Part shown: positions 8,590 through 31,858 of the stretch, one piece after another | Layout: each line of letters opens with the position of its first letter | Numbering within the stretch: the stretch's first letter is position 1 | Origin: Candidatus Stoquefichus sp. SB1 | Lineage (GTDB): Bacteria; Bacillota_I; Bacilli_A; Erysipelotrichales; Coprobacillaceae | NCBI RefSeq assembly: GCF_001244545.1 | Contig: NZ_LN852693.1 | Coordinates: 382,656 to 446,655, forward strand | Direction of reading: 5' to 3' | DNA length: 64,000 nucleotides | Program-made: the position numbers and the translations under genes | The notes under the pieces: model-generated | Told to the model about the DNA's origin: nothing | The model's database searches: none | What the model saw: the letters and a program-made list of their open reading frames with translations, nothing else

Positions 8590-8616
8590 TTAGCACTCTT
8601 CATATCTAAGTGCTAA
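8590..8616. promoter_or_regulatory. CIRCE operator 1 of clpB
   Basis: TTAGCACTC, nine bases, AAGTGCTAA: one mismatch from the consensus inverted repeat bound by HrcA. It lies between the -10 box and the ribosome site of clpB. Confidence 0.92.
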
Positions 8617-8620
8617 CTAT

Positions 8621-8648
8621 AGTATATCACTATTTTTAGCACTGTCAA
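8621..8648 (-). promoter_or_regulatory. Sigma-A promoter of clpB
   Basis: Minus strand TTGACA (8648-8643), 16-base spacer, TATACT (8626-8621). The -35 box lies inside CIRCE operator 2 and transcription would start near operator 1, so HrcA would block it from both sides. Confidence 0.85.
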
Positions 8649-8662
8649 CACTTAAGTGCTAA
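8636..8662. promoter_or_regulatory. CIRCE operator 2 of clpB
   Basis: TTAGCACTG, nine bases, AAGTGCTAA: two mismatches from consensus. Its centre lies 46 bases from operator 1 and it covers the clpB -35 box. Confidence 0.88.
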
Positions 8663-8672
8663 AATTTAAATA

Positions 8673-8712
8673 TTCTTAAGACTTTCTTAATGAATTTATT
8701 CTCTTTTATTAT
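8673..8712 (+). promoter_or_regulatory. Van-like operon promoter with tandem CTTAAG-type response-regulator site
   Basis: TTCTTAAG (8673) and TTCTTAA (8684) form a direct repeat with an 11-base period, in the form CTTAAG-N5-CTTAAT. The second copy doubles as a weak -35 (TTCTTA, 8684-8689), followed by 17 bases and TATTAT (8707-8712). A repeat with one-turn period overlapping a poor -35 is the usual layout for activation by an OmpR-family regulator. The same motif occurs at 31785-31807. Confidence 0.55.
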
Positions 8713-8781
8713 GACCATCTTAAAACCATTTTATATTTCTTTTGATAAGATGATTGTGTTCATAAATATGGGAGGTTTATT

Positions 8782-9846
8782 ATGAAAAAATTAGCGATTC
8801 TTTTTGGAGGTCATTCAAGTGAGTATAGTGTTTCGCTTGAATCAGCTTATTCTGTTTTAAGCCATATCAATAAAGAAAAATATGACTTGTATATGATTGG
8901 TATTACAAAAGAGGGAAAATGGTATCACTTTGATCGGGATATTGAACAAATTAGAGATGATACATGGTGGCAAAATCCATTACATTCTGTCACTATTTCA
9001 CCCGAACCTACACAACATGCATTTATTGAAATGAAAAAAGATCATTTTATCTATGTATATGTTGATGCAGTATTCCCTATTCTTCATGGTCAAAATGGTG
9101 AAGATGGTACGATTCAGGCTCTTGTTCAATTATCTGGCATTCCATTAATTGGCTGTTCACTTATGAGTTCTGCACTTTGTATGGATAAATACAGAGCACA
9201 TGCTATTGTTTCTCAAATGGGCATTAAAACACCTAAAGCATTGGTATTAACATCATCATCTGATTTAAACACATTTAAACAAGAAATTCAAAAATTACAC
9301 TATCCACTTTTTGTAAAGCCTATGAAAGCAGGATCATCTTTAGGAATTTCTAAAATCACAGATTTTTCTGAATTAAAACCAGCAATTTCTCTGGCATACC
9401 AATATGATAATGAAATTATTATTGAAGAAGCCATTTCAGGATTTGAAGTTGGATGTGCTATTATGGGAACAGATCAATTGATAGTTGGACGTGTAGATGA
9501 GATTGAGTTATCACAGGGATTTTTTGATTTCACAGAAAAGTATTCACTGAAAACATCTCAAATCCATATGCCTGCAAGAATTGATTCAAACATCGAAAAA
9601 CAAATTCAAAACACAGCAAAAATAATCTATCAGGCACTAGGGTGTCAAATCTTTGCAAGGGTTGATATGTTTTTAACACCTAAAAATGAAATTGTTTTTA
9701 ATGAAGTCAATACAATCCCAGGATTCACATCACATAGCCGTTTTCCAAATATGATGAAAGGCATCGGACTTTCTTTTACTGAAATATTAGATACTATTAT
9801 TGAAATGGGGTTAGCTCATGAAAACCATCGCTTTACATCCAACTGA
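8782..9846 (+). CDS. VanG-type D-Ala-D-Ser (or D-Ala-D-Ala) ligase
   Basis: A 354-residue ATP-grasp ligase joining D-alanine to a second D-amino acid for the end of the peptidoglycan stem. Landmarks are FGGHSSEYSVSLESA (residues 8-22), HGQNGEDGT (102-110), the ATP loop KPMKAGSSLGISK (179-191) and NEVNTIPGFTSHSR near the C-terminus. Length and wording follow VanG closely: CMDKYRAH, GFEVGCAIMG and the omega loop GFFDFTEKYSLK (246-257), where ordinary Ddl enzymes carry a YDYxxKY-type loop. That loop and the downstream VanXY and VanT genes argue for D-Ser as second substrate. GGGAGG precedes the ATG. If this were the cell's only ligase it would be housekeeping as well. Confidence 0.88.
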   Translation: MKKLAILFGGHSSEYSVSLESAYSVLSHINKEKYDLYMIGITKEGKWYHFDRDIEQIRDDTWWQNPLHSVTISPEPTQHAFIEMKKDHFIYVYVDAVFPILHGQNGEDGTIQALVQLSGIPLIGCSLMSSALCMDKYRAHAIVSQMGIKTPKALVLTSSSDLNTFKQEIQKLHYPLFVKPMKAGSSLGISKITDFSELKPAISLAYQYDNEIIIEEAISGFEVGCAIMGTDQLIVGRVDEIELSQGFFDFTEKYSLKTSQIHMPARIDSNIEKQIQNTAKIIYQALGCQIFARVDMFLTPKNEIVFNEVNTIPGFTSHSRFPNMMKGIGLSFTEILDTIIEMGLAHENHRFTSN

Positions 9847-10561
9847 TATTCATAAAGGTCCACTCATTCTTATTAATTCTGATTATCCTTATTATGAAAA
9901 TCCTCATTTACGCATTATTGAAGAGCATCAAATCTTATTAGAAAAAACAACGATGAATTTATACAATCAGATCATTAATGATCCCTATCTTCAAAAGAAT
10001 ATTATGCCTACAAGTGGTTATCGTACAGCCATCCAACAAACTCAAATATATAATGATTCTTTAAAAGAGAATGGTCTGGATTTTACTCAACGTTTTGTCG
10101 CACTACCACAACACAGTGAACATCAAAGTGGACTTGCTATTGATTTAAGTTTATCGCATGAAGATATCGATTTGATAACGCCTCATTTTGTTGACCATAG
10201 TGCATGTGAATATTTTAAAAACCGTGCTTTAGAATATGGTTTTATTCAAAGATATACCAAAGAAAAACAATTTATCACAAATATTGATGATGAACCATGG
10301 CATTTTCGTTATATCGGTATTCCCCATTCTTTTTATATGTTTGAAAATAATCTTTGTTTAGAAGAATATATAGATCATTTAAAACGATATTCTATTTATC
10401 AACCATTACATTATTGTTATCAAAATCGATTATTTACTATTTTCTACGTCCCTGTAGCGCAAGAAAGTGTTCATCTTTCTTTATCTGATCAAGCCATTTA
10501 TCAAATTTCCGGAAATAATGTTGATGGCTTTATTGTAACATCATGGAGGGCCTATGTTTAA
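9818..10561 (+). CDS. VanXY-type D,D-dipeptidase/carboxypeptidase
   Basis: A 247-residue M15 zinc peptidase without signal peptide, so cytoplasmic, as expected of VanXY enzymes that destroy D-Ala-D-Ala and trim precursors ending in D-Ala. The zinc site is complete: H102 (SEHQSGLAIDL), D109 and H162 (EPWHFRY), with E159 as general base; SGYRT (66-70) carries the substrate arginine. The stretch SLKENGLDFTQRFVALP is very close to VanXY of the vanG type. It overlaps the ligase gene by 29 bases, with GGGG upstream. The last 60 residues form an extra beta-rich tail of unclear role. Confidence 0.85.
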   Translation: MKTIALHPTDIHKGPLILINSDYPYYENPHLRIIEEHQILLEKTTMNLYNQIINDPYLQKNIMPTSGYRTAIQQTQIYNDSLKENGLDFTQRFVALPQHSEHQSGLAIDLSLSHEDIDLITPHFVDHSACEYFKNRALEYGFIQRYTKEKQFITNIDDEPWHFRYIGIPHSFYMFENNLCLEEYIDHLKRYSIYQPLHYCYQNRLFTIFYVPVAQESVHLSLSDQAIYQISGNNVDGFIVTSWRAYV

Positions 10562-11567
10562 GAAAAATTATCCTTATATTGATATCATGCGTATCATAGC
10601 AGCTATTCTTGTTATTGGTATACATACTTATCCTTTTTTACAAATCAGTAAAGAATTTGATTTTTTAACAACTCATGTTCTTGGAAGAATCGCTGTTCCC
10701 TTCTTCTTTATGACAACAGCATTCTTTCTTTTTCAATCAGGTTTACCCTCATCACAAAAATTAAAAAAAGTCTTTAAACAACTGTTTATGATTGATTTAA
10801 TAAGTATCATTCTTTACTTACCTATTCAAATCTATAATCATTCTTTATCTTTAAGTCCATCAATCATTTTTAAAGATCTTTTGATGAATGGAACATTTTA
10901 TCATTTATGGTATTTACCTGCTTCAATGATTGGAATTTTGATTGTTTATCTTTTGTTGCGATATTTATCAATAAAACAAAGTTTTTTGATTGTTTTGATT
11001 TTATATATTATTGGATTAGGTGGTGATTCATATTATGGCTTATCTGTACAAATTCCCCTCTTAAAAAATCTTTATTCAGGAATTTTTCTATTTTGTGATT
11101 ATACCAGAAATGGGGTTTTCTTTGCTCCTCTTTTTATAATCTTAGGTGCATTCATTGCCCAACATCCACAAAAAATTCATAAAAAGGCTTGGTTTATTGC
11201 TGGTGGTGTGAGTTTTGCTGTGATGTTTATAGAGGCATATTTATTAAATCATTATCAATTTCCACGCCATGACGCTATGACTATAGCATTGCCTTTTGTT
11301 ATGTATTGTCTTTTCATGATTTTAATATCTTTTAGTGGAAAACGATATTCACTTTGTAAAGACTTATCACTTTATGTTTACATTATTCATCCTTTTGTAA
11401 TAGTGATAATCAGATTAGTAGCCAAATTCATCCATCTAGAAAATATTCTTGTCCAAAACAATTTATTACACTTTCTTTTTGTTACAGTCTTTTCATTTAT
11501 GATTTCTTATATTTGTCTTTGCATTAAAAACGGAGGTCTTTATCATGATAAATCAACAAATATATAA
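10554..11567 (+). CDS. VanT-like membrane domain (acyltransferase-3 fold), separate gene
   Basis: A 337-residue integral membrane protein with about ten hydrophobic segments. It begins MFKKNYPYIDIMRIIAAILVIGIHT, the acyltransferase-3 signature with its conserved first-helix His. The N-terminal half of the VanT serine racemases of the vanG and vanC types has this same fold and is thought to bring L-Ser across or to the membrane. Here it is a stand-alone gene immediately followed by the racemase, the arrangement described for vanTm and vanTr in the vanL operon. GGAGG lies just ahead of the ATG, which overlaps the VanXY gene by eight bases. Alone it could be mistaken for an O-acetyltransferase. 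Confidence 0.8.
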   Translation: MFKKNYPYIDIMRIIAAILVIGIHTYPFLQISKEFDFLTTHVLGRIAVPFFFMTTAFFLFQSGLPSSQKLKKVFKQLFMIDLISIILYLPIQIYNHSLSLSPSIIFKDLLMNGTFYHLWYLPASMIGILIVYLLLRYLSIKQSFLIVLILYIIGLGGDSYYGLSVQIPLLKNLYSGIFLFCDYTRNGVFFAPLFIILGAFIAQHPQKIHKKAWFIAGGVSFAVMFIEAYLLNHYQFPRHDAMTIALPFVMYCLFMILISFSGKRYSLCKDLSLYVYIIHPFVIVIIRLVAKFIHLENILVQNNLLHFLFVTVFSFMISYICLCIKNGGLYHDKSTNI

Positions 11568-12738
11568 AGAAAGAAGCTGGATTGAAATTGATCTTGATGC
11601 CCTTATTCATAACGTTCATGAAATTTCTACTTTATTAAAAAAGCCATCGCAAATTATGGCCGTTGTTAAAGCTGATGCATATGGACATGGTGCACCTATC
11701 ATTGCCCAGACACTAGAAAAATCTGGAATCCGTTATTTTGCTGTAGCAACATTAGATGAAGCTATTGAACTCAGAATGCATCATATCCAAAGTGAGATTT
11801 TAATTCTTGGATACACTTCACCACATTTGGCTAAATTTCTTCACCAATATCATCTAACACAAACAGTTATTGATTACAATTATGCTTTACAACTTTCTCA
11901 AATGCATATTCCTTTAAATATTCATATCAAGATTGATTCAGGAATGCATCGTTTAGGAGAAGATTATCATGATCTTTATCATATTCTAAAAATATTTGAA
12001 TTACCGCATTTACATATGACAGGAATTTTTTCTCATCTCTGTGTTGCTGATAGTTCAAAAACTGATGATATTGATTTTACACATCAACAGTTTCAACATT
12101 TTAATGAAACCATTTCAAAGTTACAAAAATTAGGCTATAACGTTGGAAAAGTACATATGCAAAGTAGTTATGGTTTACTTAATTATCCTGAATATCAATA
12201 TGATTATGCCCGAATTGGGATTGCCTTATATGGTGTTTTATCAAGTCCCAATGATTTTATGAAACATCCTATCCAATTACAACCGGTTCTTTCTATGCGT
12301 TCTCATATTGCCTGTATTCATCAAGTGAGTGCCAATAGCGCAATTGGTTATGGTAGAAGTTATACTTTACAACAAGATAGCCTAATTGCAACAGTTCCAA
12401 TTGGTTATGCTGATGGATTACCTAGACAATTATCATCTTGGCAAAATGTTATTGTGAATGGTAAAAAAGTTCCTATTGTGGGAAGAATTTGTATGGATCA
12501 GTTAATGATTGATATCACCTCTCTTCCTCATTGTCAAGTTGGTGATATTGTCACTATCATTGGCAAAGATCGTCAAGCACAAATAACGGTAGAAGAACTA
12601 GCCAACAACGCAAATACCATCAGCAATGAAATATTAAGTCGAGTTGGTCAGCGACTTCCCAAAATTTATTATCAAAAAGGAGTCAATCATGAAACGCTAC
12701 AAACGTCAATATTATCAAAAACCAAAGTCATTTCCTAA
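11545..12738 (+). CDS. VanTr-like PLP serine racemase (alanine racemase fold)
   Basis: A 397-residue fold-III PLP enzyme. K42 in VVKADAYGHG binds PLP, Y269 in AIGYGRSYTL is the second catalytic base, and YARIGIALYG, VGRICMDQ and IGYADGLPR are family motifs. At the position of Tyr354 of Geobacillus alanine racemase (INYEV) this protein has Asn361 (ISNEIL). The same Tyr-to-Asn change was reported to favour serine in VanT of the vanG type. With the preceding membrane gene it would rebuild a full VanT supplying D-Ser to the ligase. GGAGG precedes the ATG, and it overlaps genes on both sides. An ordinary alanine racemase is the alternative. Confidence 0.83.
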   Translation: MINQQIYKERSWIEIDLDALIHNVHEISTLLKKPSQIMAVVKADAYGHGAPIIAQTLEKSGIRYFAVATLDEAIELRMHHIQSEILILGYTSPHLAKFLHQYHLTQTVIDYNYALQLSQMHIPLNIHIKIDSGMHRLGEDYHDLYHILKIFELPHLHMTGIFSHLCVADSSKTDDIDFTHQQFQHFNETISKLQKLGYNVGKVHMQSSYGLLNYPEYQYDYARIGIALYGVLSSPNDFMKHPIQLQPVLSMRSHIACIHQVSANSAIGYGRSYTLQQDSLIATVPIGYADGLPRQLSSWQNVIVNGKKVPIVGRICMDQLMIDITSLPHCQVGDIVTIIGKDRQAQITVEELANNANTISNEILSRVGQRLPKIYYQKGVNHETLQTSILSKTKVIS

Positions 12739-13897
12739 AAAATTAGTTATTATCGGAATTGTTCTTGGTATTTTAGGAGTCACTACGTATTTTCAATGGA
12801 CACGTATCCAACTTATTTTAAAAGGTTATAATCTAACCGAACAAACAATGATTTTATCTTTAGATGACCAAGATATCAAGACATATTTACAAGAGCCTAA
12901 AATAGCCCATTTAGAGACCTGGAACACTTTGAAAAATCAACAGCACTACCTTGAATACATAACTTATCAAAAATATCATCCAGATATTTCTAAAGAAGAC
13001 GTTGTCACATATATCGATACATTTTATCAAAACCATTATGAGAAACTCAAACAACTTCATTATCCTGATGATATTCTTTTACAAATGATGGAAACAGCTT
13101 CTATCAAAGATTTTGATAGCCTTATCCAACAAAATTTAGATTATCAACAAACCAAACCGTTTTTGTCAATCAAAGGAATGGTTTATCAACATCTCAATCA
13201 GTATATTCAATCTCAAAAACAACCTTTACAAGCAGTATTATCTATATCCTATCCATTTATTGATTCACACAATGAAGTGACTCAAAACTACCTCATTGTT
13301 CAACCTAATGCTTATACAACCCTTATAAAAAAAGGATTTCAAATTGCATCAGATTATGTACCAAAAGATCTTGTTACACCCAATTTACCATACAGTCCTG
13401 ATTGCGACAATAAACAATTGCGAAAAGAAGCTGCCAATGCTTTAGAGGATATGTATCAGGATGCTTTAAAAGAAGATTTACATTTAGCAATCAATAGTGC
13501 TTATCGAACTTATCAGCAACAAAAAGCAATTTATGATGACTATCATCAAAAGTACGATGAGGTCACAGCAAATGGTCTCGTTGCAATACCTGGCTGTAGT
13601 GAACATCAATTAGGTTTAGGAGTTGATTTAACAAGTCAAAGCGTTCTTGATCATCAATGGCGTTTTTTTGGTGATACACCTGAATACCAATGGGTTATTA
13701 AAAATGCTCATCGTTACGGATATATTCTCAGATATCCAAGTCAGAAATCTGCCCTTACAGGAACTGCTAATGAACCTTGGCATTTTCGTTATGTTGGTAA
13801 AGATGTTTCACAAATCATCTACGAAAACAATTGGACATTAGAGGATTATATATTACACAACGGATTTTCATCAACTTTACAGAAGATAAATAAATAA
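12689..13897 (+). CDS. VanY-type membrane-anchored D,D-carboxypeptidase
   Basis: A 402-residue protein with a basic N-terminus, one membrane anchor (residues 17-36), a 200-residue extracytoplasmic region without a recognised domain, and a C-terminal M15/VanY domain (about 240-395). Zinc and catalytic residues are intact: H306 and D313 (SEHQLGLGVDL), E362 and H365 (NEPWHFRYVG); NSAYRT (269-274) carries the substrate arginine. VanY removes the terminal D-Ala from pentapeptides outside the membrane, lowering glycopeptide targets. AAAAGGAG sits six bases before the ATG. It overlaps the racemase by 50 bases and closes the operon; its stop codon overlaps a decayed CRISPR repeat. Confidence 0.87.
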   Translation: MKRYKRQYYQKPKSFPKKLVIIGIVLGILGVTTYFQWTRIQLILKGYNLTEQTMILSLDDQDIKTYLQEPKIAHLETWNTLKNQQHYLEYITYQKYHPDISKEDVVTYIDTFYQNHYEKLKQLHYPDDILLQMMETASIKDFDSLIQQNLDYQQTKPFLSIKGMVYQHLNQYIQSQKQPLQAVLSISYPFIDSHNEVTQNYLIVQPNAYTTLIKKGFQIASDYVPKDLVTPNLPYSPDCDNKQLRKEAANALEDMYQDALKEDLHLAINSAYRTYQQQKAIYDDYHQKYDEVTANGLVAIPGCSEHQLGLGVDLTSQSVLDHQWRFFGDTPEYQWVIKNAHRYGYILRYPSQKSALTGTANEPWHFRYVGKDVSQIIYENNWTLEDYILHNGFSSTLQKINK

Positions 13898-13918
13898 CAA
13901 TATATATTGATATTAAAC
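13889..13918. repeat. Decayed terminal CRISPR repeat overlapping the vanY stop codon
   Basis: Aligned to the array repeat, the last block TTGATATTAA is intact while the first half has diverged (about two thirds of positions match overall). It lies exactly one spacer length (37 bases) from the first intact repeat, as expected of a terminal degenerate repeat at the trailer end. Confidence 0.65.
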
Positions 13919-13950
13919 TCACTTGAATCCCTATTCGGGTGAGTTTTTCG
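13915..13950 (+). terminator. Terminator of the van-like operon
   Basis: A 14-bp stem (13915-13928 with 13933-13946, including two G-T pairs), CCCT loop and a TTTTT tail. It occupies the position of the last spacer of the CRISPR array. Confidence 0.9.
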
Positions 13951-13955
13951 TTTGT

Positions 13956-14710
13956 ATTTCAAAACACCATATGTTGATATTAATCGCATGTCATTAAGCA
14001 AGGATTTGATATTATACCACTATTTCAAAACACCATATGTTGATATTAATCAAGACCATGATGATTATTAACTTGTTTACATATGCATTTCAAAACACCA
14101 TATGTTGATATTAATCCTATATCACGGATACCACACAACAGGACATGAAGACTATTTCAAAACACCATATGTTGATATTAATCTTTTACTTCCTGATCAG
14201 TGACGTTTCCTCCACCATATTTCAAAACACCATATGTTGATATTAATCTTAATTATTATACCATCAAGGATTCTCGAGACTCATATTTCAAAACACCATA
14301 TGTTGATATTAATCGGCAGAATTTGAAGCAATTACGACACAAGAAGAATTATTTCAAAACACCATATGTTGATATTAATCGTTTGCCGGCCGTAGAAAGC
14401 TTTTTTACTACAGTAGATTTCAAAACACCATATGTTGATATTAATCTTAATCGTTCCATGGTTATACGTATTCTTATACAAGAATTTCAAAACACCATAT
14501 GTTGATATTAATCAGGAATGTAGATGCTTGTACCAGCATAATACTCAAATTTCAAAACACCATATGTTGATATTAATCGACTTGAATTCCTCAATGGCAG
14601 CTTCTTTGACATCCATTTCAAAACACCATATGTTGATATTAATCCAAGTATCAGGCGGTTCTTTCATTCTCGAATGCTACATTTCAAAACACCATATGTT
14701 GATATTAATC
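13956..14710 (-). CRISPR. CRISPR array, 12 identical 30-bp repeats, 11 spacers
   Basis: Twelve perfect copies start at 13956, 14022, 14087, 14154, 14219, 14285, 14351, 14417, 14484, 14549, 14615 and 14681. On the plus strand each begins ATTTCAAAACACCATATG and ends TTGATATTAATC. The 11 spacers are 35-37 bases and all different. On the minus strand the repeat ends in TTTTGAAAT, like the 8-nt crRNA handles of type I-B and III systems. A decayed repeat at the low-coordinate end and a promoter at 14903-14931 both support minus-strand transcription. No cas gene lies in the window. Confidence 0.97.
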
Positions 14711-14725
14711 CTAGATAAAATGTGC

Positions 14726-14964: not shown

Positions 14965-14994
14965 TAAAGTAAACATCCTATGTTGATATTTAAT
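14965..14994. repeat. Isolated decayed CRISPR repeat
   Basis: Shares TATGTTGATATT and AAACA with the array repeat (roughly 19 of 30 positions). It lies 254 bases beyond the last intact repeat and has no paired neighbour. Confidence 0.5.
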
Positions 14995-30256: not shown

Positions 30257-31717
30257 CTATTTTCTTCCTCCGCCAGCCCAATGGCTAACCCAGTAAGAAC
30301 TATTTAAATTCGCAGTTGAAACACCAGTTCTTGATGAACCAGCATGAACGAAACGTCCTCCGCCGATATAAATACCAACATGAGTAATTCCACCTTTTCC
30401 TGTTGTTCCTTTAAAGAACACAAGATCTCCTGCTTTTAAATTAGACTTAGACACTCTGCTTGTCGCGCTATATTGACCAGCAGCTGTTCTTGGTAATGAA
30501 ACTCCATTTTGTCTATAAGCCCATTGTGTTAATCCAGAGCAGTCAAATGCATTTGGACCACTTCCACCTGCTACATAACGGCTTCCAACACGACTTAATG
30601 CACTTGCCGCAGCACCTGCATTTGTAGGGATTGGACTTTCAACTTTGACACTCAAAGTTTTAGAAGCAGTATTTCCAGCCGCATCAGTGACGGTATATTT
30701 AACTGAATACTTACCAGCTTTGCTAGTATTAACTGAACCACTTATTTTCACTTTTGAAGTGACATTTCCATCTTTGTTATCAATAGCACTATTTAAATAA
30801 CTCTTAGCGTTAAAACTTTTTCCAGTTGTCATTGTTAAAGATGTCTTAGACAAATTAATGCTTGGTGCACTAATATCTTTAACATCAACTGTCAATGTTT
30901 TACTTGATTCGTTACCAGATGAATCAGTAGCTGTTAATTTCAATGTTGTTGAACCAATCTTCTTAGTATCAACATTACCATCTACTTTAATTGATGCTAC
31001 TTTCTTATCGAAGTTATCAGTTATATTAACATAATCTGAATAACTAAATTTTGACCCATAGTCTACAGTCACTGTAGAACCTTTTTTATAACTTATATTA
31101 GGTGCTTCTGAATCAGATACATAGAATTCATACGTTTGTTTTGTAACGTTACCTACAGTATCAGAAACATTAAGCTCAATTGTTTGTGTTCCTAATTTTG
31201 AAGTATCAAGTTTTTGACTTGCTTCAATGAACGGTGTGACATCACCATCAACATTATCAGTTGCCTGAACATATTTTGTAATATCATTACTTCCATTGAC
31301 AGGGACATCAATAACATATCCATTGCTCTTTCCAACTGGTTTCAATTCAGGAGCTGTCTTATCAACAACCTCTACTTGGACAACCTTATTTCGTGAATTT
31401 GAGAACAAATCAGTAGCTGTAACTTCAACGTTATATATACCCAATTGATAAGCATCATATGCGTTATCATTAATTTGAACATCAATCGCATCTAGGGAAT
31501 CTTGATTATCAGAAATAGCAAACATACTTTTATCAAGTTTTGTTCCATAAAGAACTTCGATTTTGTTGGCATCGATGACAGGTTTTTCCTTGTCAACAGC
31601 GGCATAACCAACCAACCCAAATGTTGTTACAAATAACATTGGGATAAACATCGCTTTACGCTTAATAATCTGTTCTTGCAGATTTTCTAATAAATTCGTC
31701 TTAATATTACTATCCAT
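30257..31717 (-). CDS. Exported NlpC/P60 cell-wall hydrolase with Ig-like repeats
   Basis: A 486-residue protein with a basic N-terminus and one hydrophobic segment (about 23-40) that may be an uncleaved anchor. Then come about four tandem DUF5011/Ig-like domains (around 45-370), recognisable by repeated VTATD..N, DNxDGDVT and KxSGKYSVKYTVTDAAGN motifs. The C-terminal NlpC/P60 domain has catalytic C393 (FDCSGL), H446 (THVGIY) and H458 (FVHAG). It should cut peptide bonds in peptidoglycan. AAAGGAGG six bases before 31717 sets the start; the frame is open upstream. Its promoter carries perfect CTTAAG tandem sites like that of the van-like operon. Confidence 0.92.
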   Translation of the reverse strand: MDSNIKTNLLENLQEQIIKRKAMFIPMLFVTTFGLVGYAAVDKEKPVIDANKIEVLYGTKLDKSMFAISDNQDSLDAIDVQINDNAYDAYQLGIYNVEVTATDLFSNSRNKVVQVEVVDKTAPELKPVGKSNGYVIDVPVNGSNDITKYVQATDNVDGDVTPFIEASQKLDTSKLGTQTIELNVSDTVGNVTKQTYEFYVSDSEAPNISYKKGSTVTVDYGSKFSYSDYVNITDNFDKKVASIKVDGNVDTKKIGSTTLKLTATDSSGNESSKTLTVDVKDISAPSINLSKTSLTMTTGKSFNAKSYLNSAIDNKDGNVTSKVKISGSVNTSKAGKYSVKYTVTDAAGNTASKTLSVKVESPIPTNAGAAASALSRVGSRYVAGGSGPNAFDCSGLTQWAYRQNGVSLPRTAAGQYSATSRVSKSNLKAGDLVFFKGTTGKGGITHVGIYIGGGRFVHAGSSRTGVSTANLNSSYWVSHWAGGGRK

Positions 31718-31751
31718 TCGTTGCCTCCTTTCAATAATATACCCACTTAGA

Positions 31752-31807
31752 ATTATAGACCAACGTTCACAAAAAGTCCACAACTTTCTTAAGAAATTCT
31801 TAAGAAA
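31752..31807 (-). promoter_or_regulatory. NlpC/P60 promoter with perfect CTTAAG tandem operator
   Basis: On the minus strand -10 TATAAT is at 31757-31752 with a poor -35 (TGGACT, 31780-31775). Just upstream, 31785-31807 holds two TTCTTAAGAA units with an 11-base period, i.e. CTTAAG-N5-CTTAAG. The layout is that of an activator-dependent promoter, matching the binding pattern of CiaR/OmpR-family regulators. Confidence 0.6.
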
Positions 31808-31858
31808 TTGAAATTATATTGATGCATTCAATGTTTTTTCGCATAACTTTTTTTGAGA

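Follow-up and report, generated by a model that had tools for sequence, protein, structure and literature searches.

Can an operon for D-Ala-D-Ser-type vancomycin resistance that has no regulatory genes at its side still be under control, and by which regulator? This question is raised by a stretch of 64,000 nucleotides (the window) that sits in contig C3 of the 3.59-Mb genome of the gut bacterium Candidatus Stoquefichus sp. SB1. The nearest genome compared (G001) belongs to the same genus and carries the same genes as Candidatus Stoquefichus massiliensis AP9, and the source genome is a second species in the genus of S. massiliensis. The overall reading that we consider best, and hold with good confidence, is that of a relocated VanG-type operon that is probably controlled in trans.

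A five-gene operon predicted to encode a D-Ala-D-Ser pathway

Five overlapping plus-strand genes, all with open frames (ORF check), occupy positions 8782-13897 of the window and are followed by a terminator-like element:

8782-9846, plus strand: VanG-type D-Ala:D-Ser ligase, 354 aa (NF000091, PDB 4FU0, tree, D243/F252/R324)
9818-10561, plus strand: VanXY-type D,D-peptidase, 247 aa (full-length match to PDB 4F78 and motifs)
10554-11567, plus strand: VanT membrane part with an acyltransferase-3 fold, a separate protein of 337 aa (PF01757, vanT-CELN positions 4-328)
11545-12738, plus strand: VanT racemase part, a separate protein of 397 aa (NF033131, PDB 4ECL)
12689-13897, plus strand: membrane-anchored VanY-type D,D-carboxypeptidase, 402 aa (PF02557)
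13915-13946, plus strand: terminator-like hairpin, then a T run (sequence pattern only)

The VanY gene starts with the ATG at 12689, with a TTG upstream at 12644. The same five-gene order is found in S. massiliensis (L037), G019 (L170), G006 (L172) and L019. A first-pass annotation of the window had described these five genes as a D-Ala-D-Ser operon with a split racemase in a vanL-like order, with intact catalytic residues and a base composition like that of the neighbouring genes. The coordinates, open overlapping frames and family scans agree with this description, and the D-Ala-D-Ser assignment is supported by profile cut-offs, tree, residues and PDB matches. Two VanT genes in the order ligase-XY-Tm-Tr are indeed present, the catalytic residues appear intact from profiles, solved relatives and alignments, and the G+C content is 31.2% in the operon versus 31.6% in the window.

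The ligase passed the cut-off of the VanG model NF000091 (561.9 bits versus 495), far above its scores on the other Van models, stayed below that of the VanL model (305.4 bits versus 750) and matched PDB 4FU0 (VanG) with E=1.7e-132. In the tree, 26 VanG-like rows, in which the ligase sits with VanG 4FU0, split with a support of 96 from 16 Ddl rows, among which the genome's own Ddl falls; VanC, VanE, VanL and VanN are absent from this tree and were compared by profile scores only. At the VanG positions D243, F252 and R324, which we take to matter for the choice of D-Ser, the ligase displays D/F/R versus G/Y/M in the genome's own Ddl. VanA has the same three residues, so that Ddl is ruled out by them but a D-Lac ligase is not; the ligase is set apart from VanA by the tree and the profile score.

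The racemase part passed the cut-off of the VanT-G model NF033131 (531.2 bits versus 460) and matched PDB 4ECL (VanTG) with E=9.8e-118. At the Tyr354 place, it has an asparagine as in 4ECL, while the genome's own Alr has the tyrosine. Neither of the sequence-level outcomes that would have refuted the first-pass annotation appeared: the ligase groups with VanG and not with housekeeping Ddl, and the racemase does not go with Alr. A genome search found separate ddl and alr genes apart from the operon. As these exist, the operon would represent an added D-Ala-D-Ser pathway. The two proteins are members of the Ddl and Alr superfamilies, but given the tree, the residues at the D/F/R and Tyr354 places and the separate Ddl and Alr, it is hardly conceivable that they are housekeeping copies devoid of D-Ser specificity.

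The XY protein, which has no signal peptide or anchor, aligns end to end with PDB 4F78 (VanXYG, E=6.2e-65) and keeps the metal and catalytic motifs (SEHQ-GLAIDL and EPWHFRY); its score is below the VanXY-G naming cut-off (221.7 versus 500). VanY matches PF02557 with 129 bits, and its position is conserved in L037, L170, L172 and L019. Judged from these sequence features, a D-Ala-D-Ser pathway that is complete on paper is very probably present.

VanY-domain matches amount to seven in all in the genome, and a second long VanY-type protein of ~420 aa (L014, G000:C4:835993-836394) resembles the VanY of the operon.

Relation to known van systems

With vanG of Enterococcus faecalis, the operon has in common a ligase and a racemase that pass the G-type cut-offs, an XY protein that aligns end to end with VanXYG and an expected D-Ser end product. 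However, VanT is a single protein in vanG and is encoded here by two genes (10554-11567 and 11545-12738), and vanG has vanURS upstream with its own promoter (PMC4405338), whereas the present operon has no linked regulator. With vanL of E. faecalis, it shares the order ligase-XY-Tm-Tr and the split racemase, for which the NCBIfam library holds separate models of the VanT-L membrane and catalytic subunits. It differs from vanL by its VanG-type ligase (561.9 bits versus 305.4 for VanL), by the lack of vanRS behind the operon and by an extra VanY at the end. The present XY and Tm proteins are under the G and L naming cut-offs.

Among closer relatives, the operons of S. massiliensis (L037) and G019 (L170) have the same five genes, order and clpB/degV site, whereas that of G006 (L172), which shares the five genes and their order, is located elsewhere and immediately preceded by vanR-vanS. 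Clostridium innocuum is a gut Firmicute with intrinsic resistance and chromosomal D-Ala-D-Ser genes; a literature search on its mechanism or on resistance in Stoquefichus gave no useful match. The vanG-type cluster of Clostridioides difficile, which has its own vanRS, is a further case of chromosomal D-Ala-D-Ser genes in gut Firmicutes. Its VanT is fused (PMC12423673, PMC11326576), in contrast to the split protein of the present operon. Overall, the operon is well formed and largely of a known kind, and what it adds is the unlinked regulator and the evidence for relocation.

The chromosomal site

In the source genome, S. massiliensis and G019 alike, the heat-shock gene clpB lies upstream of the operon in divergent orientation and degV, a thiamine-pyrophosphokinase-like gene (TPK) and rpe lie downstream. 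In Massilimicrobiota (G017), the clpB-degV gap is 132 bp with no van genes in between, and clpB adjoins TPK in G006, G007 and G022. The van operon is found at other sites in G006 and G017, with VanRS directly upstream. Most simply, the structural genes would have arrived at the clpB-degV junction, unaccompanied by vanRS, in the Stoquefichus/G019 lineage. The earlier view of a long-resident cluster is valid for the genus itself and for a single sister genus, yet the operon is an insertion at a junction that is empty in Massilimicrobiota. As previously noted, no mobile element is now visible at the operon borders, the neighbours being clpB, degV, TPK and rpe, though a CRISPR-type array is close behind.

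This array (13958-14715) starts ~60 bp behind the operon and contains a 30-bp repeat, ATTTCAAAACACCATATGTTGATATTAATC, 12 times, with spacers of about 36 bp and a decayed repeat copy near 14971. Upstream of clpB, two CIRCE-like inverted repeats (TTAGCACT-N-AGTGCTAA) are located at 8609-8665 of the window, the second of which overlaps the clpB -35-like TTGACA and ends close to the van boxes; clpB is likely under HrcA control.

An unlinked VanR/VanS-like pair

No linked vanU, vanR or vanS was found in the neighbourhood of the operon. The best match in the genome to the linked VanR of Massilimicrobiota (61%) is encoded on contig C6, together with a VanS-like kinase:

G000:C6:873363-874043: vanR-like regulator (VanR profile and tree)
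C6:874036-875133: vanS-like kinase, directly after the vanR-like gene

The C6 regulator passed the cut-off of the VanR model (369.1 versus 350; 282 for the next two candidates). In a tree with the other OmpR-type regulators of the genome, it is the only one to group with VanR proteins; two Clostridia contribute to its subgroup with VanRs that are linked to VanG operons. The kinase scored 325.3 and is under the VanS cut-off of 400, as are the linked VanS of G006 (378.9) and L020 (366.7). The absence of vanRS reported in the first-pass annotation is consequently correct locally but not genome-wide, as a regulator above the VanR cut-off and a VanS-like kinase are present on another contig. The lack of regulation that it implied is not supported either, since this unlinked pair exists and its promoter has the same kind of box as the operon promoter.

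Six relatives have orthologues of the C6 regulator (79-91%), and a linked VanR is present as well in two of them. We rejected the idea that the unlinked pair is the operon's own displaced VanRS because a linked pair coexists with the orthologue of the unlinked one in both G006 and Massilimicrobiota; the C6 pair is thus a paralogue. Near the C6 vanRS, two almost identical ABC-transporter ATPase genes (L161:10214-10897 and 13262-13945) correspond to either a recent duplication or an assembly repeat.

Repeats at the van promoters

The operon is preceded in the window by the following elements:

8673-8690, plus strand: tandem TTCTTAA-type boxes with 11-bp spacing, TTCTTAAGACTTTCTTAA (exact pattern match, matrix score)
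8717-8751, plus strand: putative promoter-proximal ATCTTAA-N22-TAAGAT (-10-like), with the geometry of vanR promoters

The layout TTCTTAA-N22-TATAAT occurs in all seven unlinked orthologous vanR promoters, and an exact box match lies 48 bp before the C6 vanR. S. massiliensis (L037) retains the van promoter boxes, G019 and L019 retain them in part, and the operon promoter of G012 has a single good box. In genome-wide pattern searches, the exact pattern was found seven times in the genome versus two for the control, and 86 versus 21 times over 22 genomes, counts that are in part too high because palindromes were scored on each strand; with one mismatch allowed, there was no enrichment (25 versus 34 for the control). 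Using a matrix trained on other genera, the van promoter is the second-best place in the window, and its score was reached by 5 of 5000 shuffles. A sigma-70 promoter scan performed no better than shuffles.

Similar boxes are present before the C39-like gene behind vanS in G000, G001, G019, G006, G017 and G012. A VanZ-family gene (PF04892; L163:2346-2879, G000:C4), unlinked to the operon, has a TTAAGAA double box at its promoter; this box is found in G000, G001 and G019, not in G006 or G007.

Among the linked operons with a readable repeat, most combine [T/C]GTAAGAA boxes with a regulator whose helix is AHI[A/G]RLR. The recognition helix is VHIRH, and the boxes are of the CTTAA type (TTAAGA), for the C6 regulator as for those of L044 and L070. 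Thomasclavelia cocleata, whose AHVARLR regulator is encoded on another contig, has a GTAAGAA box. This co-variation between box base and VanR recognition helix, to which L024 is an exception and which was judged partly by eye, is suggestive.

The best double box of the positions scanned, TTCTTAAGAAATTCTTAAGAAATT (window 31783-31809, with a perfect copy at 31786), precedes a minus-strand gene (30257-31783) for an NlpC/P60 hydrolase that has Ig-like domains. Since this site recurs before NlpC/P60 orthologues across the family, a family-wide envelope regulator probably reads it. TTCTTAA-N4-TTCTTAA is also found before NlpC/P60-type genes in genomes devoid of the unlinked VanRS, such as G014, G015, G018 and G020. 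We withdrew the view of the box as VanR-specific on account of such relatives without a C6-type VanRS, where a second regulator must read the box and could also read the van promoter. No WalR was identified over a cut-off, and the regulator at C5:9988 reached none.

Control in trans and its alternatives

In the pathway as predicted, the racemase would make D-serine and the ligase would use it to make D-Ala-D-Ser for the cell-wall precursor, while VanXY and VanY would remove D-Ala-D-Ala dipeptides and terminal D-Ala. Precursors ending in D-serine would then result in a weaker binding of vancomycin to its target and, if the operon is expressed, in resistance. The most likely way of switching on expression is in trans, by the C6 VanRS-like pair, which may bind the TTCTTAA repeats at both promoters; from the sequence evidence, we give this control by the C6 pair nearly an even chance, more than either alternative below. 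More tentatively, the five genes may have moved without vanRS and their promoter may then have been captured by this separate pair, an older one of the family. The capturing pair would also control itself, the C39-like peptidase and the VanZ-family protein, and GTAAGAA would have given way to TTAAGAA in the box, matching the different recognition helix of this pair. If true, this would provide an example from nature of how a resistance operon is rewired to join a cell-wall regulon.

It is rather unlikely that the promoter of a genuine D-Ser operon is read by another envelope regulator, that of the NlpC/P60 hydrolases, with the VanRS-like pair as a fellow target. The double boxes before NlpC/P60 genes, both in genomes without the unlinked VanRS and at 31786, would be accounted for, but not the box base that tracks the VanR helix, T. 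cocleata included, nor the box-N22-(-10) arrangement that every unlinked vanR promoter strictly follows, and no WalR exceeded a cut-off. We are also doubtful that the operon is unregulated or silent, i.e., a relic without vanRS with basal expression or none, for which the first-pass annotation leaves room, since its five frames are open and kept in two genera at the same site and its promoter boxes are conserved. Such a state would nevertheless agree with the lack of linked vanRS, with the low to moderate resistance usual for D-Ala-D-Ser types and with the constitutive nature of some Van types (PMC8541618). Should control by the unlinked pair be real, such operons would be wrongly scored as unregulated or silent in surveys that rely on a linked vanRS to assess van clusters. 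As close relatives exist with and without linkage, how a resistance operon is rewired can be put directly to the test.

The split VanT

The separate membrane part matches PF01757 and scored 204 bits on the vanT-L-mem model, under its cut-off. Residues D10, H24 and R45 are invariant in fused and split versions (28/28), and R13 is found in 96% of them. This conservation fits a conserved role for the acyltransferase-like membrane fold of VanTG to which a previous study points (PMC12423673). A VanT-G racemase over the cut-off is present in 13 of the 43 genomes of this bacterial family; since the open frame has just 378-411 codons in all but one of them, a split VanT is the norm of the family. Such a split offers the possibility of removing the little-understood membrane part without touching the racemase. 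In T. cocleata (L022:8995-12383), the cluster is shortened to ligase-racemase-VanY, lacks both XY and the membrane part, and has its VanR-like regulator on another contig.
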